From the NCBI RefSeq assembly GCF_001541345.2, contig NZ_LMVL02000001.1:310001-374000 (forward strand): a stretch of DNA of 64,000 nt, read 5' to 3'. The notes beneath the pieces are model-generated. The model did no database searches. It saw only the letters and a program-made list of their open reading frames with translations, and was not told where the DNA came from. Shown piece after piece: positions 28,118-64,000 of this stretch (positions within the stretch are counted from its first letter, which is position 1; every line of letters begins with the position of its first letter). Source of the DNA: Gillisella vitis. Lineage in GTDB: Bacteria; Pseudomonadota; Alphaproteobacteria; Rhizobiales; Rhizobiaceae. A program made the position numbers and the translations under genes.

Positions 28118-28177
28118 TCGCGTCATCCACAGTGTTCATGGCTCGGCCAAAACCCGGCCATCGGGAGGAGAAATTAT

Positions 28178-29260: not shown

Positions 29261-29298
29261 TCGACCGTTAAGCTGTTAATTTAATAGGATTTCTAATC

Positions 29299-31524: not shown

Positions 31525-31599
31525 CAGATATTTCAACATGCATTTTCTGGTGTTCTAACAGGATTTTCGCGGCTTTCGCGCCGGAGAAAAGGAGCCATC

Positions 31600-33672: not shown

Positions 33673-33711
33673 TGTGAGGCCATGGGTTGGTTGTCCTTGC
33701 AGGAGCTACCA

Positions 33712-39045: not shown

Positions 39046-39095
39046 CGCCACGACATCGCGGCGAGATTTTTTATGCCGGGCAATGGTTCCTTGCT

Positions 39096-39121
39096 GAAGG
39101 CCTGGTATCTGAAGGGCCTTC
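39096..39121 (+). other. Weak stem-loop after the first monooxygenase gene
   Basis: GAAGGCC (39096-39102) and GGCCTTC (39115-39121) form a 7-bp stem with a 12-base loop, 51 bases past the stop codon. There is no T-run. The following sequence up to 39288 is AT-rich and probably contains a promoter for the second monooxygenase gene; nothing else is evident. Confidence 0.3.
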
Positions 39122-39288
39122 TTCAATGCCCATGACGAGTCCGCCGCATTGGCAGTGCGTTTTTCTCGATGGTCCAGCCAGACAGAAAAACATACCTTCA
39201 TTTAGTGCATAAAAAACATAGATTAACTTCAATAACCGCCAATGTCTGCGATGCTGCCTCGGCATGTTTGCAGCAAAGGACGGCGCCG

Positions 39289-40692: not shown

Positions 40693-40727
40693 ATTCCCTT
40701 TCCAATTTCAAGCAACGAGGCACGATT

Positions 40728-41996: not shown

Positions 41997-42017
41997 GTGG
42001 GGAACTGAGGCAGAGCA

Positions 42018-43280: not shown

Positions 43281-43351
43281 CGTTCAGATTTTCTATCCGC
43301 CGGGTGCATACCTCTGCGCCCGGCCTTTTCTTGACCATAGGAAACCATAAC

Positions 43352-44395: not shown

Positions 44396-44452
44396 GACTT
44401 TTGGGCCTGCCCCGGGCATGCGGTTGAGGATAAATGCAGGCTCTGGGCAGAC

Positions 44453-44486
44453 AAAAACGGAAGCACTTCACGGTGCTTCCGTTTTT
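44453..44486. terminator. Strong bidirectional intrinsic terminator
   Basis: AAAAACGGAAGCAC (44453-44466) and GTGCTTCCGTTTTT (44473-44486) form a perfect 14-bp stem with a 6-base loop. A T-run ends the stem on both strands, so it terminates the rightward aldo/keto reductase operon and the leftward metY gene. Confidence 0.9.
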
Positions 44487-44496
44487 CCATGTTTGA

Positions 44497-45819
44497 TTAG
44501 GCAGCCTTGCTTTTCTGGATGCCAGAAGATGCCGCATCGAGACCACGTTGGATATCGGCGATGATATCATCGATATGCTCAATGCCGATGGAAAGGCGCA
44601 CGTAGCCCGGCGAGACACCGCTTGCGGCCTGCTCTTCTGCCGTGAGCTGGGAATGGGTTGTCGAGGCCGGGTGAATGGCCAGGCTGCGGGCATCGCCAAT
44701 ATTGGCAACGTGATAGAGCAATTCGAGCCCGTCGATGAACTGGCGTCCAGCGTCCAGCCCGTCTTTCAGCTCAAAGCCGACAAGACCGCCATAACCACCC
44801 TTGAGATATGTATCGGCCCGCTCGCGCCATACGCCGCTCTGCTGAGATGGATAGATCACCTTGGCGACTTCTGGGCGCTTGGCCAGATAGTCCGCAACGG
44901 CTGCGGCGTTTTTAACGTGGCGCTCAATGCGAAGCGGCAGGGTTTCAATGCCTTGCAAAAGCTGGAAGGCGTTGAAGGGTGAGAGTGCGGCTCCAAGGTC
45001 ACGCAGCAGGGTCACACGCGCCTTGATGATATAGGCAATAGGACCAAGCGGCTTGGTGGCTTCCGTCCAGACGGCGCCGTGGTAGCTTGGGTCTGGTGTG
45101 TTCAGCGCGGGCTGACGCTCTTTGTGGGCTTCCCAATCGAAATTGCCGCCATCAACGATCAAACCGCCAATGGACGTGCCGTGGCCGCCAAGATATTTGG
45201 TGGAGGAATAGACAACCACAGCCGCGCCATGATCGAACGGACGCGCCAGCAAGGGGGCTGCGGTATTGTCGACAATCAGCGGAATGCCAACTTCCCGGCC
45301 AATGGCGGCCACCTCGGCAATCGGGAAGACCGTCAGTTTCGGATTGGGCAGGGTCTCGGCATAATAGGCGCGGGTGCGCTCATCCGTGGCGCGGCGGAAA
45401 TTTTCCGGATCAGTCGGATCAACAAAACGAACCTCAATGCCCTGATCTTTCAGCGTGTTGGCAAACAGGTTCCATGTGCCGCCATAAAGATCAGTGGAGC
45501 TGATAATATTGTCGCCAACCTTTGCGAGGTTCTGGATCGCAAACGCAGATGCCGCCTGCCCAGAGGCAAGCGCCAAAGCTGCAACGCCACCTTCGATGGC
45601 TGCAATGCGCTGCTCAAGCACATCCACGGTAGGGTTGCCGATGCGGCTATAGATATTGCCCAGCTCTTTCAGGGCAAACAGATTGGCCGCATGCTCCGTA
45701 TCCCGGAACTGAAAAGACGTGGTCTGATAGATCGGAACGGCGACAGCCCCCGTCGTCGGGTCGGCGCGCCAGCCGGCATGAAGGGCCAGCGTTTCTGGAT
45801 GCAATGGTTTGCTGCTCAT
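44497..45819 (-). CDS. metY: O-acetylhomoserine sulfhydrylase (O-acetylhomoserine aminocarboxypropyltransferase)
   Basis: 440 residues, the length of MetY rather than of shorter cystathionine synthases. The PLP lysine is K208 in 'VVVYSSTKYLGGHG', the cofactor-stacking Tyr is in 'NIYSRIGNPT', and the phosphate-binding 'ASGQAA' loop is at ~86-91. The enzyme makes L-homocysteine from O-acetyl-L-homoserine and sulfide (or a methionine directly from methanethiol), in the cytoplasm. That makes it the natural sink for sulfide or methanethiol released by the neighbouring monooxygenases. It stands alone, leftward, divergent from the ribose-type importer operon. I saw no SAM-II riboswitch in its leader. 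Confidence 0.9.
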   Translation of the reverse strand: MSSKPLHPETLALHAGWRADPTTGAVAVPIYQTTSFQFRDTEHAANLFALKELGNIYSRIGNPTVDVLEQRIAAIEGGVAALALASGQAASAFAIQNLAKVGDNIISSTDLYGGTWNLFANTLKDQGIEVRFVDPTDPENFRRATDERTRAYYAETLPNPKLTVFPIAEVAAIGREVGIPLIVDNTAAPLLARPFDHGAAVVVYSSTKYLGGHGTSIGGLIVDGGNFDWEAHKERQPALNTPDPSYHGAVWTEATKPLGPIAYIIKARVTLLRDLGAALSPFNAFQLLQGIETLPLRIERHVKNAAAVADYLAKRPEVAKVIYPSQQSGVWRERADTYLKGGYGGLVGFELKDGLDAGRQFIDGLELLYHVANIGDARSLAIHPASTTHSQLTAEEQAASGVSPGYVRLSIGIEHIDDIIADIQRGLDAASSGIQKSKAA

Positions 45820-50992: not shown

Positions 50993-51829
50993 ATGCTGTC
51001 CGCCACCATGACCAAGACAATCTTCGGTTTTGTTCTCTCGATATCCGCCCTCGTCGCAACTCAGGCCTTGGCAGATGCCACACTTGACCGCATCAAGGGA
51101 CGTGGCAAGCTGACTGTTGGCGTTATCCTGTCTGGCGCGCCCTTTGGTTATATCGATCCGAAAACCCAGGACCAGAAAGGGTTTAACGTCGATATTGCCC
51201 AGGCGCTTGCCGACGATCTCGGCGTCAAGCTGGAAACGGTAACGGTCACGCCGCCCAACCGGGTGCAGTTTCTCCAGCAGGGCAAGGTCGATATTCTGAT
51301 TGCCAATATGCAATATACCGAGGACCGCGCCAAGGTGCTGGATTTCGTGCCGACACCTTATGATCGCAGCGGCGGTGCTGCCGTGGTGCGCAAGGATAGT
51401 GGCCTGAAGGATTGGGCCGACCTGAAGGGCAAGCCGGTCTGCGTCTCGCAGGGCTCCAACTATACCCAGCCGCTGATCGAGGAATATGGTGCCATCGTCA
51501 AGGCGCTGCCGAGCCAGCCGGAATCGCTGCTGGCGTTGCAGGGCGGCAATTGCGTGGCGGCTGTGCATGTCGGCGCAACGGTTGGGCTGTTGTTGCAGGA
51601 TCGCCCGGAGGAATGGAAAGATTATGCCATTCCGTTCCCGACCGAACTGGTCCCCTCGGACTCGGTCATCTGGCTGCGCAAGGGTGAGAAAGATACCCAG
51701 ACCGCCCTCGACAGTGCCGTCAAAAAACTGCATGTTTCCGGAAAACTGCTTGATTTCGCCAAGTCCAGCCGTCTGTTGAATACCGACTATCTCGAGCAGG
51801 AACATAAGGCGCTCGCCGCGACCAAGTAA
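50993..51829 (+). CDS. Polar-amino-acid-type ABC transporter substrate-binding protein
   Basis: 278 residues from the ATG at 50993, which has AAGGAG 7-8 bases upstream; a second Met five codons later is possible. A signal peptide covers residues ~1-27, ending 'ATQALADA'. Family 3 blocks follow: 'IKGRGKLTVGVILSGAPFGYID', 'GFNVDIAQALADDLGVKLETV' and 'LQQGKVDILIANMQYTEDRA'. In place of the usual Arg-Ser-Tyr ligand set there are substitutions ('LSGAPFGYID'), so a non-standard amino acid such as a sulfonated or sulfur-containing one is possible. It starts the next operon with two permeases and an ATPase. Confidence 0.86.
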   Translation: MLSATMTKTIFGFVLSISALVATQALADATLDRIKGRGKLTVGVILSGAPFGYIDPKTQDQKGFNVDIAQALADDLGVKLETVTVTPPNRVQFLQQGKVDILIANMQYTEDRAKVLDFVPTPYDRSGGAAVVRKDSGLKDWADLKGKPVCVSQGSNYTQPLIEEYGAIVKALPSQPESLLALQGGNCVAAVHVGATVGLLLQDRPEEWKDYAIPFPTELVPSDSVIWLRKGEKDTQTALDSAVKKLHVSGKLLDFAKSSRLLNTDYLEQEHKALAATK

Positions 51830-51873
51830 GACGAAGATGAAAGGGTGCTCCGGCATCCTTAGCCTTCATCAAA

Positions 51874-51953
51874 TTTCGAATATCTCAAATATATCAATGA
51901 TTTGGAATATTCGAAAACAGAATACAAAGGTTATTTCCAATGACACTTTGTAT
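51874..51953 (+). promoter_or_regulatory. Two AT-rich inverted repeats between binding-protein and permease genes
   Basis: Arms at 51874-51890 and 51900-51916 match at 15 of 17 positions, with TTTCGAATAT perfectly repeated, around a 9-base loop. A second inverted repeat, ATACAAAG (51922-51929) and CTTTGTAT (51946-51953), follows. They may regulate a promoter for the permease operon or hold the 3' end of the binding-protein message. Confidence 0.5.
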
Positions 51954-51976
51954 CAGCGGCGCAACGGTAGAGACAC

Positions 51977-52723
51977 ATGCAGGATATCAATCTCACCGAT
52001 CTGTTCGTCCGTCTGACGGGCAGTATCGGTCTTAATTTTGAGTTCCTGGCAACGGGATATGAGGCGCAGATCTGGCGGGATGGTTTTTTGACCACGCTTT
52101 ATCTGGTGGTTTTGCTCATTCCCGTCAGTTTGCTGTTTGGTCTCATGTTTGCGGCCTGTCTGACATCGGGCCGGTCATGGCTTTCCGCGCCGGTGCGAGC
52201 ATTTGTGGAAGTGACCCGAAATACGCCGACGCTGGTGCAGTTGATGTTCAGCTTTCTGGTGTTGAACACGGTTGTGTCCAATCTTGTCGGCGGCGCGCAG
52301 AACAATCCGTTGACACCATTTTTCTGGGTGGTTGCAGTGGTGGGCCTGCATGTGGCGGCCTTGCATTCCGAAGCCATCCGCGCCGGCATCGAAGCTGTAC
52401 CGGCCTCGACGATTGAGGCTGCTCGCGGCATTGGCTTCAGCCAGTTTCAGATCCTGCGTTACGTCGAGGTGCCGCTGGCCTTTCGGGCCTCGCTACCGGC
52501 CATCGTCAACAACCTGATCAATCTCGTCAAGCTGACGACGGTCGGCAATGCAATTGCCGTCAGCGAAATCACCTATGCATCGATCATGGTGTGGACGCAG
52601 CGTGACAATGTCATAGAGTTGATGATCGTGATCCTGGCTTTCTTCAGCCTCATCAATCTGGTCGTCGCCCGTGTCGGCCTTTGGGTAGAGCGCAAGCTTG
52701 CCATTCCGGGATATGGGTTATGA
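51977..52723 (+). CDS. Polar-amino-acid-type ABC transporter permease 1
   Basis: 248 residues, HisM/GlnP class. The periplasmic leader is followed by 'WRDGFLTTLYLVVLLIPVSLLFGLMF', a first helix with the family's 'G...T' signature, then 'FVEVTRNTPTLVQLMFSFLVL', which matches the conserved 'RGTPLLVQL' segment with Asn-Thr in place of Gly-Thr. The EAA loop is 'EAARGIGFSQFQILRYVEVPLA'. The next permease starts within its stop codon. Confidence 0.87.
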   Translation: MQDINLTDLFVRLTGSIGLNFEFLATGYEAQIWRDGFLTTLYLVVLLIPVSLLFGLMFAACLTSGRSWLSAPVRAFVEVTRNTPTLVQLMFSFLVLNTVVSNLVGGAQNNPLTPFFWVVAVVGLHVAALHSEAIRAGIEAVPASTIEAARGIGFSQFQILRYVEVPLAFRASLPAIVNNLINLVKLTTVGNAIAVSEITYASIMVWTQRDNVIELMIVILAFFSLINLVVARVGLWVERKLAIPGYGL

Positions 52724-53502
52724 TGTCGCCAATGCTTCACAACCATGCGGGCCGCAGCCCCGCCCTGCGCAATATCGCTCTCGTCGCCTTGCCGCTGGCC
52801 ATCCTGGTCTGGGCGCTGGCCGATCTGTCGCTTGGCCGTGAACTGGTGCAATGGCTTCCTTATCTCGGCTCCGGCTTTGCGATGAACATCGTTATCAGCC
52901 TTTCGGCGATGACGCTGGGGACCGTGCTGGGGGTCCTGCTTGGCATGCTGCAAATGGTGCCATTCCGGCTGGTCCGCTACCCGGCTGCGGTCTATGTGCA
53001 GGTGTTTCGCAATGCGCCGCACCTGGTGCTGATCTTTGCGACCACTTATATCTTTCCTTTCGAGATCATTGTCTTTGGCAACTATCTGTCCTTTCCCGAT
53101 TGGGTGAAGGCCATGGTCGGTCTGGCCATCCCGGCAAGCGCCTATATCGCCGAAATCACCCGTGGCGCCATCCTGTCTATTCCGACGGCGCAATGGGAGG
53201 CGGCTCAAGGCCTGGGCTTTTCGCGCTGGCAGGCGCTGCGCTGGATCATTCTGCCGCAATGCCTGCGCCGGTCGCTGCCGCCATGGATGAATGTGCTTGC
53301 CTCAATCACCATGGGGACGTCACTGGCCTCGCTGGTCGGCGTCCATGAACTTCTCCATGCCGCCACCGATGCCAGCACATCCGTGCGCCGGCTTGATTTC
53401 ACTGTCATTGCCTATGTCGTGGTGATGGCTGCTTTCTTCGCGCTTTGCTACCCGATCGCCCGTCTGACCCGCCGCCTGGAGCGCCGTTTCAAGGCGGCCT
53501 GA
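52720..53502 (+). CDS. Polar-amino-acid-type ABC transporter permease 2
   Basis: 260 residues from the ATG at 52720, overlapping the previous stop by 4 bases; an ATG at 52723 is the alternative. Blocks 'GFAMNIVISLSAMTLGTVLG', 'YVQVFRNAPHLVLIFATTY' and the EAA loop 'EAAQGLGFSRWQALRWIILPQCLRR' are those of the GlnP/HisQ class. Like its partner it has a changed 'RxxP' segment (Asn-Ala instead of Gly-Thr). The two form a heterodimeric channel for the binding protein encoded upstream. Confidence 0.87.
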   Translation: MMSPMLHNHAGRSPALRNIALVALPLAILVWALADLSLGRELVQWLPYLGSGFAMNIVISLSAMTLGTVLGVLLGMLQMVPFRLVRYPAAVYVQVFRNAPHLVLIFATTYIFPFEIIVFGNYLSFPDWVKAMVGLAIPASAYIAEITRGAILSIPTAQWEAAQGLGFSRWQALRWIILPQCLRRSLPPWMNVLASITMGTSLASLVGVHELLHAATDASTSVRRLDFTVIAYVVVMAAFFALCYPIARLTRRLERRFKAA

Positions 53503-53514
53503 GGATTTGAGAGA

Positions 53515-54300
53515 ATGATTGCAAATACCGACAATGCCATCGTCCGTTTGGAAGACGTACACCTGTCCTTCGGCCAGACGCAGGTGCTGAAGGGTATCGA
53601 CCTGACGGTCAACAAGGGCGATGCCGTGTCGATCATCGGTCCCTCCGGCTCTGGCAAATCCACCATCCTGCGCTGCATCAATGCGCTGGTGACGGCCCAA
53701 AGCGGTCGCATCACCGTGGCGGGGACACGCGTTGACCAATTGACCAAGGAAAGCGAGCGCATTGCGCTGCGCAAGCGGGTCGGCATTGTCTTCCAGCAAT
53801 ATAATCTCTTTCCGCATCTGACGGTGCTCGACAATATCATGCTTGCCCCGACCCGCATTCTGGGAACGGCAAGACGCGAAGCGGAAAAGGTCGCGCGTGA
53901 ATTGCTGGACAAGGTGCGGCTTGGCGAAAAGGCTGATGCTTATCCGGGCCAGCTCTCTGGCGGGCAGCAGCAGCGCGTGGCGATTGCCCGGGCGCTGGCG
54001 ATGAAGCCCGACCTTGTGCTGTTCGACGAGGTCACTTCGGCACTCGATCCTGAAACGGTCGGTGAGGTCTTGTGGGTAATCCGTGACCTGATCCGCGATG
54101 GCATGACCAGCATTCTCGTCACCCATGAAATGCGCTTTGCCGAAGAGATCAGCGACACCGTGGTGTTTACCGAGAATGGCCGCATCGTCGGCCAGGGCTC
54201 GCCGGAGCAGATCTTCCATAAGAGCGACAATCCGCGCATCCGCCAATTCGTCGGCGGGTTGTCGGGCCGGGGTACGGTGCGCGAAGGCGAAGGCATATAG
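53515..54300 (+). CDS. Polar-amino-acid-type ABC transporter ATPase, GlnQ class
   Basis: 261 residues. Walker A 'GPSGSGKSTILRCINAL', Q loop 'FQQYNLFPHLTVLDN', signature 'LSGGQQQRVAIARAL', Walker B 'LVLFDEVTSALDPE' and switch His in 'LVTHEMRFAEEIS' are all present. Val replaces the common Pro after Glu of Walker B, a change often seen in this class. The gene is 12 bases after the permease and 8 bases before the PrpD-type gene, so the enzyme genes downstream are cotranscribed with this importer. Confidence 0.89.
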   Translation: MIANTDNAIVRLEDVHLSFGQTQVLKGIDLTVNKGDAVSIIGPSGSGKSTILRCINALVTAQSGRITVAGTRVDQLTKESERIALRKRVGIVFQQYNLFPHLTVLDNIMLAPTRILGTARREAEKVARELLDKVRLGEKADAYPGQLSGGQQQRVAIARALAMKPDLVLFDEVTSALDPETVGEVLWVIRDLIRDGMTSILVTHEMRFAEEISDTVVFTENGRIVGQGSPEQIFHKSDNPRIRQFVGGLSGRGTVREGEGI

Positions 54301-54308
54301 GAGCCGCC

Positions 54309-55670
54309 ATGACGACGACCATAGCCGCGCCACTGACCAGCGCTTTCGCACGGGCAATTGTGCAATCTGAGCCTGACCGCGACAATGCGGCCATTGCTGC
54401 GGCCCGTACCGCGATCATTGATTTTCTGGCCTGTGCGATTGCTGGTGCAGGGGAGCGGACAACGGCTATCGTCGCAACCGCACTCGGCGGGAGTATCGGC
54501 GGCGACGCCATCCTGATCGGCAGCGCGCGCCGCGTCGATCCGCTGGTTGCTGCGGTCGTCAACGCCTATGCGGGCCATGTGCTTGACTATGACGATGTGC
54601 ATTCCAGCGTACGCGGCCACCCGACGACCGTGATTATTCCGGCATTGCTTGCCCTGGCTGCTGAGCGCGATTTTACCGCAGATGCAATGGTCGCATCCTA
54701 TGTTGTCGGGCTGGAGGCGATGGCGCGGCTGGGCCTGTCGCTTGGCGCCCGGCATTATGAGAACGGCTTTCATGCCACGGCGACCCTCGGCACGGTGGGT
54801 GCGGCGGCGGCGATCTGCCATGTGACGCAGGCATCACCAGAAGAAACAGCGGTGGCGCTTGGCCTTGCCGCCACGCAATCCTCCGGTCTCAGATTGCAGT
54901 TCGGTTTCGATGCCAAGCCCTATCATGCGGGCATGGCGGCGCGCTCCGGCCTGTTGGCGGCGCGGTTGGCCTCGGCAGGTTTCGGAGGCGCGCCGGATTT
55001 TCTGGACAATCCGGTTGGTTTTCATTCCGCCTATGCCTTTGGGGCCGGGCATCCGGAAACCGTGGTTGAGAACTGGGGTTCGCCCTGGCAGATCGTTTCG
55101 CCCGGCCTGACGCTGAAAGCCTATCCCTGCTGCACGGCCAGCCATCCGGTCGCCTCTCTGGGCATAGACCTGCATCGTGAGGGCCTTGCCGCTGACGCCA
55201 TCGACACGATCACCTTCACCTATCCGCCCGGTGCCGATGCCGCACTCGTCGTCACCAAGCCGACGAATGGGATCGAGGCGCGCTTCAGCCCGGAATATGT
55301 CTTTGCTGCCACTCTGATCGACGGAGTCCTGCGGCTCGACCATTTCGATGAGCGGCCGGTGGAACCCCGGTTGATGGCACTCGCTACCCGCGCCAGTCGG
55401 CGGCATCAGGAGAGTGCGCCCCGTATGTCGAGCGATCCGACGACGCGGTTCGTTATCCTCGATATAGCCCTTAAGGATGGCGGTACAATCCAGCGTCGGT
55501 TCGACGGTCTGCCAGGGCTTGCCGATCCAGCCGACAAATTCCGCGAGGCGACTGCGGCGGATGCCTCCTTTGCCGAAATCCCTTCGCTCGTCCGGGATAT
55601 GAGCAGCAGTGCCGATCTGCGTCGCCTGCTTGCCCTTCTCAACCAGGACGTCTCCAATACCCGTAATTGA
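54309..55670 (+). CDS. MmgE/PrpD-family protein of unknown substrate
   Basis: 453 residues. The N-terminal helical domain has 'AARTAIIDFLACAIAGAGERTTAIV' and 'YAGHVLDYDDVHSSVRGHPTTVIIPALLALA', the signature of the MmgE/PrpD fold. Later, 'HATATLGTVGAAAAICH' and 'LTLKAYPCCTASHPVASLGIDL' give the active-site Lys, Tyr and Cys region. Family members are 2-methylcitrate dehydratase, cis-aconitate decarboxylase and iminodisuccinate epimerase. Its linkage to an amino-acid-type importer and a monooxygenase suggests it processes an imported acid, for example by eliminating water or epimerising, before or after C-S cleavage. No methylcitrate-cycle genes are nearby, so propionate degradation is unlikely. 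Confidence 0.82.
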   Translation: MTTTIAAPLTSAFARAIVQSEPDRDNAAIAAARTAIIDFLACAIAGAGERTTAIVATALGGSIGGDAILIGSARRVDPLVAAVVNAYAGHVLDYDDVHSSVRGHPTTVIIPALLALAAERDFTADAMVASYVVGLEAMARLGLSLGARHYENGFHATATLGTVGAAAAICHVTQASPEETAVALGLAATQSSGLRLQFGFDAKPYHAGMAARSGLLAARLASAGFGGAPDFLDNPVGFHSAYAFGAGHPETVVENWGSPWQIVSPGLTLKAYPCCTASHPVASLGIDLHREGLAADAIDTITFTYPPGADAALVVTKPTNGIEARFSPEYVFAATLIDGVLRLDHFDERPVEPRLMALATRASRRHQESAPRMSSDPTTRFVILDIALKDGGTIQRRFDGLPGLADPADKFREATAADASFAEIPSLVRDMSSSADLRRLLALLNQDVSNTRN

Positions 55671-55702
55671 TGCCATACCCACACGCGACGAAAGACTGTG
55701 CC

Positions 55703-57004
55703 ATGACCCGCAAGAGAGAAATTCACCTCGGCCTGTTCCTGCAAGGGGCTGGCCACCATGTCTCCGGCTGGCGGCATCCGAATGCGGAAGCTGGCAGCGA
55801 AAATTTCGACCTGCTGCGTCGCGTATCGCAGCTCGCCGAGCAGGCGAAATTCGACATGGTGTTCCTGGCAGACGGGCTGACGAGCGGCGTCGATGCCCAT
55901 CCCTCGACCATTGCCCGGTTCGAACCGCTGACCCTGTTGGCCGCACTTGCCATGGTGACCGAAAAGATCGGCCTTGCCGCAACTGCTTCGACCACCTATG
56001 GCGAACCCTACCATGTTGCCCGCGCCTTTTCCTCCATTGACCACCTGAGCCAGGGGCGGGCCGCCTGGAATATCGTCACCACTTCCTATGCCCGGACCGC
56101 CAATAACTTCTCGAAGTCCCATCCCGGCCATGATGAACGCTACGCCGTCGCCGAAGAATTCGTCGATGTGGTGCGCGGCCTCTGGGACAGCTGGGATGAT
56201 GATGCCTTCATCAAGGACAAGCAGAATGGCATCTATGCCGATCCCAACAAGGTGCATCTCCTCGACCACACGGGCAAATATTTCTCGGTTAAGGGTCCGC
56301 TGAATATTCCCCGATCTCCGCAGGGCCATCCGATTCTGATTCAGGCCGGATCATCCGGGCCGGGGCAGGATCTCGCGGCCCGAACGGCCGATGTGGTGTT
56401 CACGGCCCAGCAAAGTCTTGATGAAGCACAGGCCTTCTATAAAAGCCTCAAGGATCGGGTCACCGGGTTTGGCAGGCATCCCGACGATGTCGCGGTCATG
56501 CCGGGCTTCCTGCCGGTCATCGGCCGCACGGCACGGGAGGCTGCCGACAAGCTGGCCGAACTCGACCAATGGACCGAACTGAAAAGCGCCATGCCGCTGC
56601 TTGAGGAGCGGATTGGTCATAGCCTTGCCGATTACGATCCTGATGGGCCGCTGCCGGATCTGCCGATTTCCGACCAGCTGCGCAGCCGCGCCGAACTGCT
56701 GACCGCGTTAGCCCGGCGTGAGAGCCTGACCATAAGACAACTAGCCCTGCGGGTTGCTGCCGGGCGGGGACATCATATCGTGCTCGGCACACCAGAAGAT
56801 ATCGCCGACCGTATGCAGCAATGGTTTGAAACACGCGCCGCTGACGGTTTCAACATCATGCCGCCGTTCTTCCCGGAGGGGCTGGAGGATTTCACCCGTC
56901 TGGTGGTTCCAATCCTACAAGAACGTGGCCTGTTCCGGACAGATTATAGTGGCGTGACATTGCGCGATCATCTGGGCGTATCCCGGCCAAACCTGTCCTC
57001 TTGA
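55703..57004 (+). CDS. FMN-dependent group C monooxygenase, NtaA/SnaA/DszA family (third of four)
   Basis: 433 residues from the ATG at 55703, giving the usual opening 'MTRKREIHLGLFLQGAGHH'. Blocks include 'GWRHPNAEAGSENFDLLRRVSQLAEQAKFDMVFLADGL', 'SSIDHLSQGRAAWNIVTTSYARTANNF', 'GHPILIQAGSSGPGQDLAARTADVVFTAQ' and 'DGFNIMPPFFPEGLEDFTRLVVPILQERG'. These are standard NtaA/DszA segments, less like DmoA than the two copies at 37.7-40.7 kb. It would need FMNH2 from a reductase. It is the last gene of the amino-acid-type importer operon, 32 bases after the PrpD-type gene. Confidence 0.86.
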   Translation: MTRKREIHLGLFLQGAGHHVSGWRHPNAEAGSENFDLLRRVSQLAEQAKFDMVFLADGLTSGVDAHPSTIARFEPLTLLAALAMVTEKIGLAATASTTYGEPYHVARAFSSIDHLSQGRAAWNIVTTSYARTANNFSKSHPGHDERYAVAEEFVDVVRGLWDSWDDDAFIKDKQNGIYADPNKVHLLDHTGKYFSVKGPLNIPRSPQGHPILIQAGSSGPGQDLAARTADVVFTAQQSLDEAQAFYKSLKDRVTGFGRHPDDVAVMPGFLPVIGRTAREAADKLAELDQWTELKSAMPLLEERIGHSLADYDPDGPLPDLPISDQLRSRAELLTALARRESLTIRQLALRVAAGRGHHIVLGTPEDIADRMQQWFETRAADGFNIMPPFFPEGLEDFTRLVVPILQERGLFRTDYSGVTLRDHLGVSRPNLSS

Positions 57005-57080: not shown

Positions 57081-58262
57081 TCAGGCGGTTTTCAGCGCGG
57101 AGTGTTTTGCGACAGGGTTTAGCTGTGCTGCTTCCTGGCGCTGCCAGCGGTCAAACGCTGCACGGCCGAGGATCGACAGGGAGGTATCTTCCTGCGGAGC
57201 ATGAACAAGCACGGCCTGAATGTCACGGAAGTGGCGCTCTAGCCCGATATCGGCGTTAAGGCCCGGATTGCCGATGCCGCGCACGGCGAGTTCCACGGCG
57301 CTCCGCAGCTGGCGGCCAGCAATAAGCCTTGCACGCATCAGACGTTCCGCATCGTCTTGACCGGACAGAAGCGCATCGAAGATAATCTGGCGCGCGCCAC
57401 CGACCAGCAGGTCGATTTCGCCTGATAGCGTTATGAACCGTTCGGTACGGGCGATGGGATGGCCCAGATTGGTTGGAACACGGTCATGGGCGAAATGGTT
57501 GAAGGCGGCTTGTGCCGCTTCGGCAACCCCAAGATAGATCGCCGTCAGTGCAAGTGTAATCGCCGCGTGGCCGCGATTGTCCTGCTGGGCGATTTCTGTG
57601 CCGGTCAGATCCAGAACATGGTCTAGAGGGATTTCCACATCGCTATAGTCAATATCATGCGAGCCTGTCGCCCGCATGCCCAGACTGTTCCAGTTTTCAA
57701 TCACGCTTATGCCGGGCAGTCCGTTCGGCACAATAAAGGTTCCGACGCGGGTTGGCGTTTCGTCCGTATGCGCCCAGACCAGGAAATGCGTGAGGCCATG
57801 CGCACCCGTTACGAAACGCTTGCGACCGGTGATTGACCAGCCCGTCGCGGTGCGGCGGGCACGTGTTGCCGGCAGGCCACCACGGGCTGGCGATCCAAGC
57901 TCCGGCTCGACCCGGGCTGCATTGAGCAGCAAGGGGCGCTGTTTTGCTTCGGCCAGCAGCCTTTGATAGAGATCTTCAGGCCAATGGTTTCTCAAGGCTT
58001 GGCCGAGGTGATTGAAGATCGTCATGGCGCTGATCAGGGCAACCGATGGGTCGCCACGGCCAAGAGCCGCCAAAATTTGAGCGGCATCGTAGAGCGTCCC
58101 ACCCTTGCCGCCATATCGCGTCGCAACGGTGCTTTCGAGAAGTCCGCTTTCGTGAACGGCACGAATGCCTGCCCAGGGAAACTGTCCGCTGCGGTCGGCA
58201 TCCGGCGCGGCCTTTGCGACGATCCGCACAGTTGCGTCAAGCAGGGTTTGATCATGGGCCAT
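57081..58262 (-). CDS. SfnB/DszC-type flavin-dependent oxidoreductase, acyl-CoA dehydrogenase fold (third copy)
   Basis: 393 residues. It has the helical N-domain ('WAGIRAVHESGLLESTVATRYGG'), the beta domain ('GWSITGRKRFVTGAHGLTHFLVWA', 'NSLGMRATGSHDIDYSDVEIPLD') and a C-terminal helical domain ('ELAVRGIGNPGLNADIGLERHFRDIQAVLVHAPQEDTSL'). The final segment with 'RHFRDIQ' resembles that of SfnB and DszC-like monooxygenases. It is more divergent than the tandem pair at 40.7-43.3 kb. It is the last gene of the leftward dipeptide-type importer and SsuD-type monooxygenase operon (51-base gap). Confidence 0.84.
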   Translation of the reverse strand: MAHDQTLLDATVRIVAKAAPDADRSGQFPWAGIRAVHESGLLESTVATRYGGKGGTLYDAAQILAALGRGDPSVALISAMTIFNHLGQALRNHWPEDLYQRLLAEAKQRPLLLNAARVEPELGSPARGGLPATRARRTATGWSITGRKRFVTGAHGLTHFLVWAHTDETPTRVGTFIVPNGLPGISVIENWNSLGMRATGSHDIDYSDVEIPLDHVLDLTGTEIAQQDNRGHAAITLALTAIYLGVAEAAQAAFNHFAHDRVPTNLGHPIARTERFITLSGEIDLLVGGARQIIFDALLSGQDDAERLMRARLIAGRQLRSAVELAVRGIGNPGLNADIGLERHFRDIQAVLVHAPQEDTSLSILGRAAFDRWQRQEAAQLNPVAKHSALKTA

Positions 58263-58313
58263 GGTTTTGAAGCCTTTTGAATGTCTGTCTATAAAGCCGC
58301 CGGATGACGCTCA

Positions 58314-59417
58314 TCACGCGGCGGCCTTCTTCCTGGCCTCTTCGCGTTCACGGATGCCTTCGCGGACCAGCGGCAGGACGTAGCGCCCATAATCCACGGC
58401 ATCATTGTAGTTGTCATACCCTCTGATCGAGATCAGGTCGGCGCCGAGGTCGATATAGTCCAATATGGAATCGGCGATGGTGCGAGGCGAACCCACCAAA
58501 GCGGTGGTTGCGCCGCTGGCGTTTGTGGCTGTCACTGTCGGATACCAGAGAGCCCTGTCGTGAACATCGCCGCGTTTGGCAATATCCAGAAGACGCTGTG
58601 AACCGACATTGGCTGGGGGCGGCGCGGACAAGGGTGTCCTGCTGAGGCCTTTCTCACGGTTTTCGTTCAGCGTGTCGAGAATGCGATGGGCTTTCTGCCA
58701 GGCCAGTTCATCCGTCTCGGCAATGATCGGACGGAATGTGACCCAGATGCGCGGGCGATCCTTGCGTCCTGCCTTGGCCGCCTCGGCATAGATGCGGTCG
58801 ATCTGTTGTTTGGTTTCTGCCAAAGGCTCGCCCCAAAGGCCAAAAATATCGCATAACGAGCCGCCGATCCGATAAGCAGCCTCCGACGAGCCACCGAGCG
58901 AGATCGGGATCAGGCCGTTGGTCGGGCGCACGGCACTGCGGAACTGTTTGAACTGGTAGTAGTTTCCGTTAAAATCGAAGGGTTCTGTCGAGGTCCAGGC
59001 CAGACGCAGAATGCGGATATACTCTTCCTGACGCTCGTAGCGCTGTTCTTTAGTCAGAAAATCACCCTCGCGGGCCTGCTCCTCATCACTGCCGCCGGCG
59101 ATGAAATGGACGACAACACGACCGCCGCTCAGCTGATCGAGCGTTGCCAGCGATTTCGCCGCAACGGTCGGGTAGACGGTGTTCGGACGCAGGGCGACAA
59201 TGATCTTGATCTTCTTCGTGTGGGCCAGAATGGTCGCGCCCAGCGTGAAAGGATCAAAGGAAGCGGAAGAGTAGGGGATCAAAGTGTAGTTGAAACCGTA
59301 ATCGTCCAGCGCACGCGCGTAGCGTTGCAGAAAATCGGGGTCCACCGGCGCATCGGGGATTGGGTGCAGATCATTCGATCCGTTGGCGAAACTTGCGCTA
59401 ATGAATTCAGCGGCCAT
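58314..59417 (-). CDS. FMN-dependent group C monooxygenase, SsuD-like (alkanesulfonate type)
   Basis: 367 residues, close to SsuD (about 380). 'DYGFNYTLIPYSSASFDPFTLGATILAHTKKIKIIVALRP', 'ATLDQLSGGRVVVHFIAGGSDEEQAREGDFL' and 'RYERQEEYIRILRLAWTSTEPFDFNGNYY' are the defining SsuD/MsuD blocks. Such enzymes use FMNH2 and O2 to split sulfonates into aldehyde and sulfite. No ssuE-type flavin reductase gene is adjacent. It is followed by an SfnB-type gene and preceded at 72 bases by the dipeptide-type ATPase gene, so transport and desulfonation are probably coordinated. Confidence 0.87.
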   Translation of the reverse strand: MAAEFISASFANGSNDLHPIPDAPVDPDFLQRYARALDDYGFNYTLIPYSSASFDPFTLGATILAHTKKIKIIVALRPNTVYPTVAAKSLATLDQLSGGRVVVHFIAGGSDEEQAREGDFLTKEQRYERQEEYIRILRLAWTSTEPFDFNGNYYQFKQFRSAVRPTNGLIPISLGGSSEAAYRIGGSLCDIFGLWGEPLAETKQQIDRIYAEAAKAGRKDRPRIWVTFRPIIAETDELAWQKAHRILDTLNENREKGLSRTPLSAPPPANVGSQRLLDIAKRGDVHDRALWYPTVTATNASGATTALVGSPRTIADSILDYIDLGADLISIRGYDNYNDAVDYGRYVLPLVREGIREREEARKKAAA

Positions 59418-59489
59418 TCTGTGACGTCTCCATTTGGTTTTGAGCCTTTGATGAAAGCTATGCTGAGGTCTTGTCCTGCGCGGTTGCGA

Positions 59490-61211
59490 TCACGCGAGTT
59501 CGTCCTGTTTGAAAACAGCGTGGGCAACTGAGTGCGTTGGGTGGGTGTGCCCGGACGGGATCGAGGCCAGCAGCGACCGGGTATAGGATTGGCGGGGAGT
59601 GTCGAAGACGGCTTTGACGGTGCCGTGCTCGACAATGCGCCCGCGATGCATGACCGAGACGGTATGGGCAAGCTGGCGCACCAAAGCGAGATCGTGGGAA
59701 ACGAACACATAGGTCAGACCCAGATTGGCCTGTAGCGTCAACAGCACGTCAACGATATCGGCCTGGACACTGACGTCGAGCGCTGAGGTGGGCTCATCCA
59801 GCACGATAACATCCGGCTTCAAAACCAGCGCTCTGGCAATGGCGACGCGCTGACGCTGGCCACCGGACAGTGCGCCCGGCTTGCGGCCAAGCAAATGCTC
59901 GCCCAGTCCGACGTTGGACAGGGCTTCGCGCACCCGCTCGCTTCGCTCCCGCGCAGTGCCGATCTTGAACCGGTCCAGCGGCTCGCGTACCAGATTCTCG
60001 ATTTTCCAGGTGGGATCGAGTGAGGTGAACGGGTTCTGGTAAACGAGTTGAAGATGACGCCAGACGGCTCGTCTGGACTGGGGCTTACGGCTTGAAAACT
60101 GCTCACCGGCAACGGAGATCTGGCCGCTATCGGGGTCTTCAAGGCCCAGAAGCAGCCGGATCGTCGTTGTCTTGCCGGAGCCGGATTCCCCAACCAGAGC
60201 GTGTGTAGTGCCTGATGGTACGGAGAATGTCACATTATCGACAGCTGTCAGGGATTTGCCATCGACCGTGAAGGTCTTCGTCACACCTTTGACCTCGATC
60301 TTGGTATCAACGCCCGCAGCATTGTTGAGGCTATGAAATCTGCCATCGCGCAGCTTGGCATAGCGGTCGGGATTGAGGGCGGGAACATCGGCATGCAGCT
60401 TTCTGGCATAGGCCGAAGCCGGTGCGGCAAAGACAGCCTGAGTATTGCCCGCCTCCTGCACAATTCCATCCTTCAGCACGACCAGTTGATCTGCCCGCTC
60501 GGAAGCGATTGCCAGATCATGGGTAATCAGCAGAAGGCTGATATCCAGATCCTGCTGAAGCCGCGTCAAAAGGTCGAGGATGCGCTTTTGGATCGTCACA
60601 TCCAGTGCGGAGGTCGGCTCGTCCGCAACCAGAAGGGCCGGGCGCGGCAGCACCGCAAGGCCGATCAGCACCCGCTGAAGCATGCCGCCTGACAATTGAT
60701 GCGGATAGGAATCGTAGACGCGATCCGGCTTGTCGAGGCCGACCGCCGCGAATGTGTCCAGGATCAGCGCTTTGCGGATGGCTTTGTTCTGTTCGCCAAG
60801 AAGTGCTGCCGCTTCCATGGCTTGCGCGCCGATGGTGCGCACCGGGTTGAGCGCGTTGCCGGGATCTTGCGGAACAAAGCCGATAGCGCGCCCCCGCAGA
60901 GGCCGGAACTGACGCTCAGTAAGGCTCAAGATGTTCTGGTCGTTGAACGCGATTTTCCCCGTCGCCTGTCCGCCTTGGGGCAATAGCCTGAGGATGGCCC
61001 GTGCGATGGTTGATTTGCCTGAGCCGGATTCTCCAATCAACGCCAGGCTCTTGCCTCGGTCCAGCTCGAACCCGACAGTCTTCACGACTTGGCGAGCCCC
61101 ATAGGATATCGACAGGTCTTCCACCCGCAACAGCGAAGTTGACGGCTGGAGCGCTGTAGAACCGGTTGCGAGGCCGGGGAGGGTGGTGTTCAGTCTGTCT
61201 TGCGGAGCCAT
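59490..61211 (-). CDS. Dipeptide-type ABC transporter ATPase with two fused domains
   Basis: 573 residues from the ATG at 61211, 22 bases inside the preceding permease gene; the frame stays open far upstream but that part is the antisense image of permease coding in another frame. Domain 1 has Walker A 'GESGSGKSTIARAI', signature 'LSGGMLQRVLIGLAV' and 'LLVADEPTSALDVT'. Domain 2 has 'GESGSGKTTTIRLL', 'LSGGQRQRVAIARAL' and 'IVLDEPTSALDVS'. It is a DppD-DppF fusion like the alpha-galactoside one but from a different lineage. It powers the importer whose binding protein crosses the right edge of the window. Confidence 0.87.
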   Translation of the reverse strand: MAPQDRLNTTLPGLATGSTALQPSTSLLRVEDLSISYGARQVVKTVGFELDRGKSLALIGESGSGKSTIARAILRLLPQGGQATGKIAFNDQNILSLTERQFRPLRGRAIGFVPQDPGNALNPVRTIGAQAMEAAALLGEQNKAIRKALILDTFAAVGLDKPDRVYDSYPHQLSGGMLQRVLIGLAVLPRPALLVADEPTSALDVTIQKRILDLLTRLQQDLDISLLLITHDLAIASERADQLVVLKDGIVQEAGNTQAVFAAPASAYARKLHADVPALNPDRYAKLRDGRFHSLNNAAGVDTKIEVKGVTKTFTVDGKSLTAVDNVTFSVPSGTTHALVGESGSGKTTTIRLLLGLEDPDSGQISVAGEQFSSRKPQSRRAVWRHLQLVYQNPFTSLDPTWKIENLVREPLDRFKIGTARERSERVREALSNVGLGEHLLGRKPGALSGGQRQRVAIARALVLKPDVIVLDEPTSALDVSVQADIVDVLLTLQANLGLTYVFVSHDLALVRQLAHTVSVMHRGRIVEHGTVKAVFDTPRQSYTRSLLASIPSGHTHPTHSVAHAVFKQDELA

Positions 61212-62038
61212 CGGCTGATCCTGTTGACGGAGAGGACGGTTGCGATCACGGCGAACGCAGGTGCGTAAACCAGCCACGGCCATTTGAGGTAATCCTTGCC
61301 GATTGAAATCAGCAGACCCCAGTCCGAGGCGGGTGGCGGATCGCCGTAGCCGAGGAAGGCAAGACCGGCGATGACAAGAATGGAAAGACCAAATTGCAGG
61401 ACGGCAAGGGTGAGAAGGGAGCGTGAGGCATTTGGAAGCACGTGCCACAGAAGGATATACCAGCGTGACCCTCCCAGCAGAAACGATGCCTCGACGAAGG
61501 TCGCTTGCCGGGTTTTGATCACCTCTGCCCGCATCACCCGGGCAAAGACCGCCACGGCGGAGACGCCGGTCGCGATTGCGGCATTGGTGGTGGTGAAGCC
61601 GAGTGCGGTGACGACGATGATCGCCAGCAGGAAACTGGGAATCGCCAGCAGCATATCGACCAGGCGCGCCAGCACGATATCGACCCAGCCGCCGAGAAAG
61701 CCTGCCAGAAGGCCAATGATGCCACCGACGACAACGCCAATGACAACCGCGATCAGCGCACTGGTCACCGAAGACGCCGTGCCATAGACGACGCGCGCGT
61801 AAAGGTCGCGCCCGAGCTGGTCTGTGCCGAACCAATGTTGCGCGCTGGGTGCCAGCAGTTTTTGAGCGGGAACGCCAATAACGGGGCTATGGCTTGTGAA
61901 CAAGCCAGGGGCGAGCGCCCAGGCGATCACCAGGGCAATGACGGCGAACGAGATGAACACCGTTGGCGGCATGTGGAATGCCGACCAGTTTTTGGTTGTC
62001 CGCAAACCTTTGTCTGAAGAAGAAAAAGCGATTGTCAT
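61190..62038 (-). CDS. Dipeptide-type ABC transporter permease, DppC class
   Basis: 282 residues, compact compared with the Agp permease. The first helix ('VFISFAVIALVIAWALAPGLF') is followed by 'HWFGTDQLGRDLYARVVYGT', the DppC hallmark, and the EAA loop 'EASFLLGGSRWYILLWHVLPN'. The stop lies inside the ATPase gene and the start overlaps the partner permease by 4 bases. It forms a heterodimer with the DppB-class protein. Confidence 0.88.
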   Translation of the reverse strand: MTIAFSSSDKGLRTTKNWSAFHMPPTVFISFAVIALVIAWALAPGLFTSHSPVIGVPAQKLLAPSAQHWFGTDQLGRDLYARVVYGTASSVTSALIAVVIGVVVGGIIGLLAGFLGGWVDIVLARLVDMLLAIPSFLLAIIVVTALGFTTTNAAIATGVSAVAVFARVMRAEVIKTRQATFVEASFLLGGSRWYILLWHVLPNASRSLLTLAVLQFGLSILVIAGLAFLGYGDPPPASDWGLLISIGKDYLKWPWLVYAPAFAVIATVLSVNRISRWLRKTD

Positions 62039-63045
62039 ATCGTCACCGCACGAGAGGTTTCGGTAGAGCTTGTCTCCTCAGCGGACGTGCGAGGCCGTTG
62101 GACGCCAAGCAGTTTCACACGCGGGTCCAGCAGGGGATAGACGAGGTCTGCGATCAGGTTGACGAGAACGAAGGCCACTGCTGCCAGCGAGACGACCGCC
62201 TGAAGAACAGGCAGATCCTGGGTTGTGACCGAGCGCTGCACCAGGCTGCCGATGCCCGTTCGCCCAAAAACCGTTTCGGTTATCAGGGAACCACCCAGCA
62301 ACTCGCCGACGGTCAGGGCGATCACTGTGACCACCGGCAAGGATGAGGGCTTCAACAGGTGTTTGAAAAACATCTGCGCCTGGGAAAGACCTCGACCCCG
62401 CGCCACCGTTGCATAGTCCTGGCTTGCTTCATGGTCGAGATTTGCAATCAGGACTTCCGCTATCTGGGCAGAGACGGGAATGCCGAGTGCAATTGACGCA
62501 AACAGGGTTGCCCAGACACTATCGGGTTCAATGACCCGGAAAATGCCCAGCTGGAAGCCGAAAATATGGATCAGGGCCAGCCCGATGACGAAATTGGGGA
62601 CCGATAGAAACAGGGAGGGAAACCCCCGCAGCAGGCCTTGTCCGAACCGTTTTGGCAGGAACTGCGTGCCGTAGGCAATCAGCAGCGCCAGGACAAGCGC
62701 GAAGGCAAGGGCCGCCGATGCAAGGATCAGCGTTGAGGGCAGCACTTCGGCAATCAGCGCCGCCACCGGGCGGCTGGACCGCATCGACAGGCCGAAATCG
62801 CCGGTGACGAAGTGAGAGAGCGACGTCCACAACTGGACAGAAATCGGCTTGTCCAATCCCTGGGCGGCGATGATCTCGGCGATCTCCACCTCGGTGAAGC
62901 CGTTTTGCGGATCACGCAGGACGGAGGTGACCGGGTCGCCCGGCAGAATGCTGACCACCACGAACGTAAAGACATAGGCCAGCAGGATGACCACAAAGGC
63001 CTGGGCCAGTCGTTTTGCAGCATATGTCAAGTAGGCGTTGTGCAT
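62035..63045 (-). CDS. Dipeptide-type ABC transporter permease, DppB class
   Basis: 336 residues. The start 'YAAKRLAQAFVVILLAYVFTFVVVSILPGDPV' and the EAA loop 'DYATVARGRGLSQAQMFFKHLLKPS' are typical DppB features; the 'PGDP' motif follows the first helix as in the family. It is separated from the binding-protein gene by 24 bases and shares a 4-base overlap with the DppC gene. Confidence 0.88.
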   Translation of the reverse strand: MHNAYLTYAAKRLAQAFVVILLAYVFTFVVVSILPGDPVTSVLRDPQNGFTEVEIAEIIAAQGLDKPISVQLWTSLSHFVTGDFGLSMRSSRPVAALIAEVLPSTLILASAALAFALVLALLIAYGTQFLPKRFGQGLLRGFPSLFLSVPNFVIGLALIHIFGFQLGIFRVIEPDSVWATLFASIALGIPVSAQIAEVLIANLDHEASQDYATVARGRGLSQAQMFFKHLLKPSSLPVVTVIALTVGELLGGSLITETVFGRTGIGSLVQRSVTTQDLPVLQAVVSLAAVAFVLVNLIADLVYPLLDPRVKLLGVQRPRTSAEETSSTETSRAVTI

Positions 63046-63069
63046 ACTGTAACCTCCTCACATTGCTGG

Positions 63070-64000
63070 TTATTGGCTGATTTTTGCGGTGTAGTAGCTG
63101 GCATAGGCGATGCCGTTATAGACTTCGCCTGAAAGCTTCGGGGACTGGACATAAATGCGCTGAACGATCTGCGTGCGAGGGATGAAATACCCTTGCTCGA
63201 TGACGTATTTCTGTAGTTCGTTCAGCAGCGGATCACGCACCTCTAAGGATGGGGCGCCTGCGATTTTATCGCGCAGTTCATTGATCTCTTGGTCGCTCTG
63301 GTCCAGCGCGAACCAGTTTTCCCCATTGTTGGCATCGGTCAGAATGCTGGCCACGGTGCCGGCATCGATAAAGCTGCGGGTGACTTCATAGGCTGGGACC
63401 GCAGGGCCGCCAAACTTGACCTTTTCGGTGAAAGTCACCACGTCATAGGCGCGAATATTGACCTTCCAGCCGATCTTGCCGAGCTGTTGGGCGATCAGTT
63501 CATCCACCGCCTTCGACGTGGCAAGATAGGGATTGGAGTAAAGCGTTAGCAGAAGCGGCTTTCCATCCTTGGCGCGGATGCCGTCGGCGCCTTTCGTCCA
63601 GCCTGCGTCATCCAGCAGCTTTTCCGCCCCGGCGGGGTCGTAGGCCAAAAGCGCGCTCTGGTCGGTTGCACCAGGCACATTGCTCTGGATAAACGAGGTC
63701 GCCAGCTTCCAGTCCGATGTATAGACGGTGTCGATGATTTCCTGGCGATCGATTCCAGACTGAAGGGCTTGGCGCACCCTGACATCATTATAGGGCTCGA
63801 GCTTGGTATTCACCGCCCAGCCATTGACGAACCCGAGATAGCGCGGCGTGGCAACGGTGAAGCCCTCGTCCTTGAGCGACTTCAACTCCTGGGGCGAAGC
63901 ATTATAGGCAATATCGGCCTGACCGGATTGAACCGCCGCAACCCGAAGTGATGGTTCGGAGACCAGCTTGTAGGTGATGCTGTCCAGAAACGCTGGCCCG
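63070..64000 (-). CDS. Dipeptide-type ABC transporter substrate-binding protein, C-terminal part (5' end outside window)
   Basis: About 309 C-terminal residues are visible; the frame is open to the right edge, so the signal peptide and first half are missing. Family 5 blocks are 'LDSITYKLVSEPSLRVAAVQSGQADIAYNASP', 'GFVNGWAVNTKLEPYNDVRVRQALQSGIDRQEIID', 'YDPAGAEKLLDDAGWTKGADGIRAKDGKPLLLTL' and 'ELNELQKYVIEQGYFIPRTQIV'-like text near the end. It is the first visible gene of the leftward operon with an SsuD-type and an SfnB-type enzyme, which suggests that the ligand is an organosulfur molecule and not a peptide. Confidence 0.86.
   Translation of the reverse strand, partial: GPAFLDSITYKLVSEPSLRVAAVQSGQADIAYNASPQELKSLKDEGFTVATPRYLGFVNGWAVNTKLEPYNDVRVRQALQSGIDRQEIIDTVYTSDWKLATSFIQSNVPGATDQSALLAYDPAGAEKLLDDAGWTKGADGIRAKDGKPLLLTLYSNPYLATSKAVDELIAQQLGKIGWKVNIRAYDVVTFTEKVKFGGPAVPAYEVTRSFIDAGTVASILTDANNGENWFALDQSDQEINELRDKIAGAPSLEVRDPLLNELQKYVIEQGYFIPRTQIVQRIYVQSPKLSGEVYNGIAYASYYTAKISQ

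Follow-up and report, generated by a model that had tools for sequence, protein, structure and literature searches.

Within a stretch of 64,000 nucleotides from Gillisella vitis (contig NZ_LMVL02000001.1, positions 310,001 to 374,000; hereafter the window), six genes at 50993-57004 encode an ATP-binding cassette (ABC) importer of the polar amino-acid type, an MmgE/PrpD-family protein (hereafter the PrpD protein) and a flavin-dependent monooxygenase. Judged from its sequence, this locus is a reduced form of the Bacillus yxe (now scm) locus. The function that we favor, with a confidence slightly above even, is import of an S-succinyl thioether and its oxygenolytic cleavage at the C-S bond, in which the PrpD protein, as a YxeQ-type protein, would epimerize the S-succinyl carbon. 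Thiols succinated by fumarate are a mark of several human diseases. The sources consulted describe two bacterial routes for undoing it, both via N-acetylation; a recurrent form of the locus without an acetyltransferase would, if true, mean a further desuccination route.

A Reduced yxe (scm) Locus

The Bacillus operon yxeKLMNOPQ (now scm) encodes a monooxygenase (K), an acetyltransferase (L), an importer (MNO), a deacetylase (P) and an MmgE/PrpD protein (Q) (PMC9706529). In the route described for S-(2-succino)cysteine (2SC), L acetylates the substrate, K oxygenates N-acetyl-2SC to yield oxaloacetate and N-acetylcysteine, and P removes the acetyl group; the function of YxeQ is given as unknown (PMC9706529), and the protein is entered as uncharacterized in a table of database hits (PMC8752978). 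A yxe locus was defined as a cluster of at least three of the five components YxeK, YxeL, YxeMNO, YxeP and YxeQ (PMC9706529), and homologs of scmL and scmP are described as typical of scm clusters (PMC12757645).

Homologs of three components, K, MNO and Q, lie together at 50993-57004. The yxe operon of B. mojavensis (L009) serves throughout as reference for identities, standing in for B. subtilis. With 53.3% identity to B. mojavensis YxeK over 433 aa, the monooxygenase lies above the threshold of 50% identity to B. subtilis YxeK that belongs to this definition (PMC9706529). The assignment as a yxe locus is carried mainly by K, O and Q, the similarity of the permeases and the binding protein being weak (22-33%). 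All six open reading frames (ORFs) are intact and were assigned to families by Pfam and NCBIfam:

50993-51829, + strand: family-3 solute-binding protein in a YxeM-like role (Pfam SBP_bac_3, E 2.2e-28; 33% identity to B. mojavensis YxeM over 125 aa)
51977-52723, + strand: ABC permease 1, polar amino-acid type (Pfam BPD_transp_1, E 3.9e-18; TIGR01726 above cut-off)
52720-53502, + strand: ABC permease 2, polar amino-acid type (Pfam BPD_transp_1, E 1.9e-17; 29% identity to YxeN over 176 aa)
53515-54300, + strand: ABC ATPase of the GlnQ/YxeO type (46% identity to YxeO over 244 aa)
54309-55670, + strand: MmgE/PrpD-family protein of the YxeQ/iminodisuccinate-epimerase branch, predicted S-succinyl epimerase (Pfam MmgE_PrpD_N/C)
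55703-57004, + strand: NtaA/DmoA-family FMN-dependent monooxygenase, YxeK-like, predicted C-S cleaver (TIGR03860, 577.3 bits, cut-off 279.7)

The N-terminus of the binding protein resembles a signal peptide by eye, permease 1 is 22% identical to the B. mojavensis yxe permease, and the ATPase scores 294.6 bits with the GlnQ model, under the equivalog cut-off of 379. The tight linkage of the ATPase, PrpD and monooxygenase genes claimed in the earlier note is exact: the intergenic gaps measure 12 (53503-53514), 8 (54301-54308) and 32 bases (55671-55702), and the two permease ORFs share 4 bases. The same note did not recognize the combination as characterized; it matches, however, the B. subtilis yxe/scm locus described in PMC9706529 (YxeK, YxeMNO, YxeQ).

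Recurrence of the Short Form

Related loci were collected with a YxeQ-type alignment: the best 80 of a longer list from a scan of genome contigs, plus 5 annotated plasmid loci. These 85 loci were picked by similarity to YxeQ-like PrpD proteins, so that the counts below are not prevalence figures, and were sorted by neighbor content within 7 kb. A short form, in which K, Q and the importer occur with neither L nor P, was found in 42 of the 85 loci, with M, N and O within 7 kb in 42 of 42; one of these (L043) has a lyase-signature gene nearby and was tallied as short. The full form with K, L and P is found in 11 loci, L and P together with a lyase-signature gene in 4, L or P without K in 3, and K with P in a single one (L054). 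The lyase-signature gene is presumably of the published 2SL type, an assignment made from a fumarase/argininosuccinate-lyase motif alone. In the remaining 24 loci, none of K, L, P and the lyase-signature gene accompanies the PrpD gene (L018, one of these, does have an importer), which speaks against every such PrpD protein serving this pathway.

Q, K and the importer remain neighbors in no fewer than five arrangements: most Rhizobiales have M-N-N-O-Q-K; Pseudomonas, Erwinia, a Pantoea and a Serratia have Q-K-M-N-O; in Burkholderia, Q-K faces O-N-N-M; Inquilinus has Q-M-M-N-N-O-K; and Roseomonas has M-N-O-K-Q. Since 42 of 85 related loci carry the same set in several orders, the linkage is more than chance adjacency, and the earlier proposal of one compact gene set is thereby borne out. 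Of 101 genomes drawn evenly from the family, that of G. vitis among them, four contain a match to the PrpD protein of E 1e-80 or better, each with the monooxygenase (84-100% identical) directly beside it; four further genomes have just a relative of the monooxygenase at 53-56% identity.

The PrpD Protein as a Putative Epimerase

The PrpD protein is 38% identical to YxeQ. Among sequences of the Protein Data Bank (PDB), it matches 7bra with 298 bits, iminodisuccinate (IDS) epimerase with 204 and cis-aconitate decarboxylase with 94, and no 2-methylcitrate dehydratase was matched at E 1e-3. An AlphaFold2 model (mean pLDDT 95.0) aligns with 7bra at Z 51.3 (root-mean-square deviation 2.4, 432 residues aligned) and with the IDS epimerase structure 2hp0 at Z 50.2 (2.0, 431 residues), a difference of about 1. 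Cis-aconitate decarboxylases follow at Z 46-47, B. subtilis MmgE at 38.4 and PrpD enzymes at 32.5-36.2.

The active site is of the IDS-epimerase type: the protein keeps H104, Y150, H155, K203, K270 and R102, and thus both the two-base His/Tyr pair (His99/Tyr145 in IDS epimerase) and the carboxylate-binding His and Lys. Where the earlier note let PrpD proteins either dehydrate or epimerize polycarboxylic acids, the present protein falls on the epimerase side and not on that of the dehydratases. The set H104/Y150/H155/K203/K270 is found in all 85 PrpD proteins of the survey, including the 24 unlinked ones. Arg102, which lies beside the catalytic His and is common to IDS epimerase and YxeQ, is more telling: 59 of the 61 proteins that have K, L, P or lyase partners keep it, compared with 8 of the 24 that have no such partner. 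Arg102 also occurs in enterobacterial YxeQ-type proteins whose genes have neither K, L or P nor a lyase-signature or importer gene within 7 kb (L058, L060, L067, L069, L070). Two further PrpD proteins of the G. vitis genome, L096 and L097, have Asn and Trp at this position, and L096 has Thr in place of Tyr150. L096 belongs to a second importer and PrpD set of the order M-N-N-O followed by PrpD (C1:18000-36000, at 5030-9943), and no YxeK-like match is found in that 18-kb stretch.

The closest structure, 7bra, is titled "IRG1 from Bacillus subtilis" and is 86% identical to the Q protein that closes yxeKLMNOPQ of B. mojavensis (L009:9986-11332). By sequence and synteny, 7bra (also 7e9d) is YxeQ, and its label as a cis-aconitate decarboxylase looks wrong. 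In the study that reported its structure and docking, the active-site residues of "B. subtilis IRG1" are described as completely conserved with IDS epimerase, for which His99 and Tyr145 are the proposed bases; mammalian IRG1 retains the His alone, and His277 and Tyr318 of human cis-aconitate decarboxylase are not conserved in the B. subtilis protein (PMC7347537). A later account states that the protein was called a decarboxylase without evidence of activity and probably has another, undetermined function (PMC12290011). The function listed as unknown for YxeQ and the doubted decarboxylase structure thus appear to concern one and the same protein. Another MmgE/PrpD protein was shown to be a methylsuccinate isomerase; this enzyme and IDS epimerase have an extra catalytic Tyr, epimerization relies on His and Tyr as two bases, and the substrates of the family share a C2/C3-substituted four-carbon dicarboxylate (PMC12290011). 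An S-substituted succinate would fit because of this shared substrate pattern. No proposal of an epimerase role for YxeQ was seen in searches of open-licence full texts.

The Monooxygenase

At 53.3% identity, the enzyme at 55703-57004 is closer to B. mojavensis YxeK than are the window's two further NtaA-type monooxygenases (32% and 36%). Its best PDB match is 3sdo (393 bits); YtnJ scores 370 bits and the ethylenediaminetetraacetate (EDTA) monooxygenase EmoA 234. The model of the enzyme (mean pLDDT 89.1) aligns at Z 50-52 with 3sdo and YtnJ/CmoJ, and at 44.4 with EmoA; in the monooxygenase tree, 3sdo joins YtnJ with a support of 100/100. The window's enzyme falls into a clade of 50 PrpD-linked monooxygenases (support 80/92) that come from both full and short loci, the full-locus bacteria among them being Klebsiella, Rouxiella, Winslowiella and Pantoea. 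The label "YxeK-like" follows from identity and synteny, not from a resolved tree. Ten proteins of the genome score above the TIGR03860 cut-off.

Alignment columns that might reflect specificity were compared between 9 full-locus enzymes and 15 alpha- and betaproteobacterial short-locus enzymes. Because 5 gammaproteobacterial short-locus enzymes mostly match the full-locus ones, the differing columns follow descent and not the presence of YxeL or YxeP, and nothing was concluded from them.

Genes for Acetylation and Deacetylation

GNAT (PF00583) and M20 (PF01546) genes are absent from the 64-kb window, and hence a YxeP-type deacetylase is absent from the locus. A YxeL profile built from 14 proteins was run on 40 genomes, which covered 33 loci of the short or L054 type out of the 39 on genome contigs (L031, L033, L036, L037, L041, L052 and four plasmid records were left out). 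The profile reaches at least 283 bits in 6 of 6 full-locus genomes, and an orthologue at this level is found in 0 of the 34 others (the G. vitis genome, 32 further short-locus genomes and that of L054). Three of the 34 have weaker matches of 118-156 bits, which resemble second copies in 3 full-locus genomes (143-174 bits); the other 31, that of G. vitis included, give no match at E 1e-10.

Elsewhere in the genome, four M20 proteins are 39-42% identical to B. mojavensis YxeP, and one of them (C20:229504-230619) is flanked by the GNAT gene at C20:229039 on one side and by a YtnJ/CmoJ-branch monooxygenase gene on the other. This M20 deacetylase and the YtnJ/3sdo-branch monooxygenase, with the GNAT gene adjoining (L090, C20:224001-240000, at 5465-8044), likely form an S-alkylcysteine salvage cluster.

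Proposed Mechanism

Fumarate adds to thiols non-enzymatically, and the C-S carbon so formed can have either configuration. If the cleaving enzyme were stereospecific, one isomer would remain uncleaved, which would give a role to an epimerase; IDS epimerase does the same job on the nitrogen analog. In the mechanism that we propose, the importer (50993-54300) would take up an S-(2-succino) thioether, most likely 2SC or an N-acyl form of it. His104 and Tyr150 of the PrpD protein, as suggested by family, residues and synteny, would then act as two bases that remove the proton on the S-bearing succinyl carbon and return it, thereby interconverting the two diastereomers that arise from fumarate addition to a thiol. 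In the accepted isomer, the YxeK-like monooxygenase would oxidize the S-bearing carbon with FMNH2 and O2, and the adduct would collapse to oxaloacetate and the thiol, as is in print for YxeK; the sulfur would end in the cysteine pool. Published 2SL, in the sources consulted, releases fumarate and not oxaloacetate. Q occurs with K and also with the lyase-signature gene (the 4 loci, which were chosen for having Q), and its substrate is therefore more likely the S-succinyl compound common to both than the acid that is set free.

A broader proposal is put forward tentatively, as we give it clearly less than an even chance: YxeQ-type proteins in general might be epimerases of 2SC (or its N-acyl form) and supply a missing step that lets stereospecific cleavers use both diastereomers of non-enzymatic succination, and the short loci of Rhizobiales, Burkholderiales, Pseudomonas and others might form a further branch without a dedicated acetyltransferase. 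In such a branch, a monooxygenase of altered specificity could cleave the free amino acid directly, or the substrate could be imported in an already N-acylated form.

Alternative Explanations

Several observations weigh against the cleavage of an S-succinyl thioether with the PrpD protein as epimerase. The His/Tyr pair, as it occurs in all 85 proteins including the unlinked ones, fits an epimerase and does not by itself point to this pathway, and no published assay of YxeQ was seen in the sources consulted. Recombinant YxeK/ScmK is described as inactive on un-acetylated 2SC (PMC12757645); together with the lack of a YxeL orthologue in the genome, this implies that the substrate or the route must differ somehow. 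The best PDB match of the monooxygenase, 3sdo, is titled nitrilotriacetate monooxygenase. Moreover, in the free tree the Bacillota YxeK proteins group weakly with YtnJ/CmoJ (84/79) and not with the window's clade, although forcing the two together costs 2.7 log units and is not rejected by the approximately unbiased (AU) test (p 0.33). Finally, at five places in five genomes, monooxygenases with no PrpD gene of this kind nearby are 53-56% identical to the window's enzyme, and hence as close to it as YxeK.

One way to reconcile the locus with the B. subtilis pathway would be N-acetylation and deacetylation in trans, by a SnaB/CmoL-like acetyltransferase and an M20 deacetylase encoded elsewhere. 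The four M20 proteins, one of them between a GNAT gene and a YtnJ/CmoJ-branch monooxygenase on C20, would be candidates; B. subtilis is described as having three redundant N-acetylcysteine deacetylases, and YxeK/ScmK as needing an acetylated substrate (PMC12757645). However, no YxeL orthologue is found in this genome, nor one of at least 283 bits in the 33 other searched genomes that have K and Q but lack L at the locus. B. subtilis is reported to stop growing on 2SC when YxeL alone is lost, so that the other acetyltransferases there do not substitute for it (PMC12757645). We regard this explanation as rather unlikely. The need for acetylation would vanish altogether if the substrate were a different thioether dicarboxylate that has no amino group, such as an S-succinyl mercapto acid. 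This would agree with the absence of YxeL and YxeP near the short loci, and with a binding protein that keeps the Arg but not the Asp of canonical amino-acid binding proteins, residues that contact the alpha-carboxylate and the alpha-ammonium group, respectively. The Asp says little, however, as Bacillus YxeM lacks it too, like 13 of the genome's 23 other family-3 binding proteins, and we know of no such natural substrate; an amine-free thioether is accordingly considered improbable.

The earlier note had proposed a sulfur-bearing or amino-linked dicarboxylic acid, with S-carboxyalkyl-cysteines and an IDS-like chelator as examples. A sulfur-linked acid of the S-carboxyalkyl-cysteine kind indeed remains the best class, and the part that concerns IDS has become less likely, because the C-S enzymes YxeK and YtnJ/CmoJ resemble the monooxygenase more closely than EDTA monooxygenase does, and YxeQ resembles the PrpD protein more closely than IDS epimerase does. 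An amino-linked succinate, i.e., IDS or an N-(1,2-dicarboxyethyl) amino acid that is epimerized by the PrpD protein and cleaved at C-N as by nitrilotriacetate (NTA) and EDTA monooxygenases, would be consistent with the match to IDS epimerase (204 bits; Z 50.2 to 2hp0), with the NtaA/DmoA subfamily of the monooxygenase and with the title of 3sdo (393 bits). In contrast, 7bra/YxeQ is the closer relative of the PrpD protein (298 bits) and YtnJ that of the monooxygenase (370 versus 234 bits for EDTA monooxygenase), 3sdo itself groups with YtnJ (100/100), and the related Bacillus set acts, in print, on S-succinyl cysteine; to us, this makes an amino-linked substrate a shade more improbable still than the amine-free thioether. 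The case that the earlier note had named as refuting, a simple amino-acid importer with a PrpD protein acting as 2-methylcitrate dehydratase and an unrelated monooxygenase, is suggested by the family names alone. Such an identity of the PrpD protein is disfavored: among the full-length family matches listed, 2-methylcitrate dehydratases lie farthest away (Z 32.5-38.4 versus 50-51), they gave no sequence match at E 1e-3, and importer, PrpD protein and monooxygenase remain linked in many genera despite changes of gene order. A dehydratase is therefore very improbable.

Other Features of the Locus and the Window

A single long gap interrupts the locus, the 147 bases (51830-51976) between the binding protein and permease 1, and contains the following element:

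51874-51916, no strand assigned: inverted repeat with 17-nt arms (88% complementary) and a 9-nt spacer

By the pattern used, one copy of this repeat exists genome-wide; it is possibly a regulatory hairpin or an operator. A promoter scan gave 1 site, compared with a mean of 2.6 in shuffled sequence, and was not used. Terminator-like sites numbered 10 versus 5.2 in shuffled sequence, but every one lies inside coding genes, and these were likewise set aside.

Loss of the alpha-ammonium Asp was considered as a mark of yxe-type binding proteins and dropped as evidence, given its absence (by eye) from the 13 other proteins mentioned above. Among the proteins shown, the Asp is absent in the window's, Bacillus and enterobacterial binding proteins, and present in that of Inquilinus (L021) and in one of two in Comamonas (L029).

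Downstream, on the - strand at 57081-63885, convergent genes encode SfnB/DszC-like and SsuD/SfnG-like flavoproteins, followed by a peptide-type ABC transporter. The SfnB-like (57081-58262) and SsuD-like (58314-59417) genes were left out of the set, as their matches beside it in relatives are scattered. Another apparent sulfur-scavenging cluster lies at 37672-45819, with two NtaA-type monooxygenases, two acyl-CoA-dehydrogenase-like proteins, an aldo/keto reductase and a pyridoxal phosphate (PLP) enzyme of Cys/Met metabolism. The region 25072-34755 contains sugar ABC transporter genes and genes for a GH95-family glycosidase, a GHL6-domain protein and a LacI-type regulator.

Comparison With Known Systems

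With the B. subtilis yxe/scm locus, the locus at 50993-57004 has in common a YxeK-like monooxygenase, a polar amino-acid ABC importer and a YxeQ-type MmgE/PrpD protein in one cluster. It differs in having two permeases instead of one, in its gene order M-N-N-O-Q-K, and in that the window is devoid of M20 and GNAT genes and the genome of a YxeL orthologue; the short form thereby departs from scm clusters as described in PMC12757645, for which scmL and scmP are typical. Of the monooxygenases, YtnJ/CmoJ, a C-S monooxygenase of S-alkylcysteine sulfoxides that works with CmoO in S-alkylcysteine salvage (PMC10863075), belongs to the same NtaA/DmoA family and aligns at Z ~50, but is 43% identical in the structural alignment, and the YtnJ-branch gene of this genome lies separately on contig C20. 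The NTA and EDTA monooxygenases NtaA and EmoA share the subfamily TIGR03860 and differ in the lower score (234 bits to EmoA versus 370 to YtnJ).

On the side of the PrpD protein, YxeQ/7bra is alike in identity (38%), fold (Z 51.3) and the active-site His/Tyr/His/Lys/Arg. IDS epimerase (2hp0/2hp3) and methylsuccinate isomerase are alike in the two-base His/Tyr set, in dicarboxylate-binding residues and in their substituted-succinate substrates, whereas IDS epimerase is 30% identical in the structural alignment and the PrpD protein is here associated with a flavin monooxygenase and an importer. Beyond these known systems, what is new here is a clear short form of the yxe/scm locus without an acetyltransferase, together with the case for YxeQ and this PrpD protein as putative S-succinyl epimerases.

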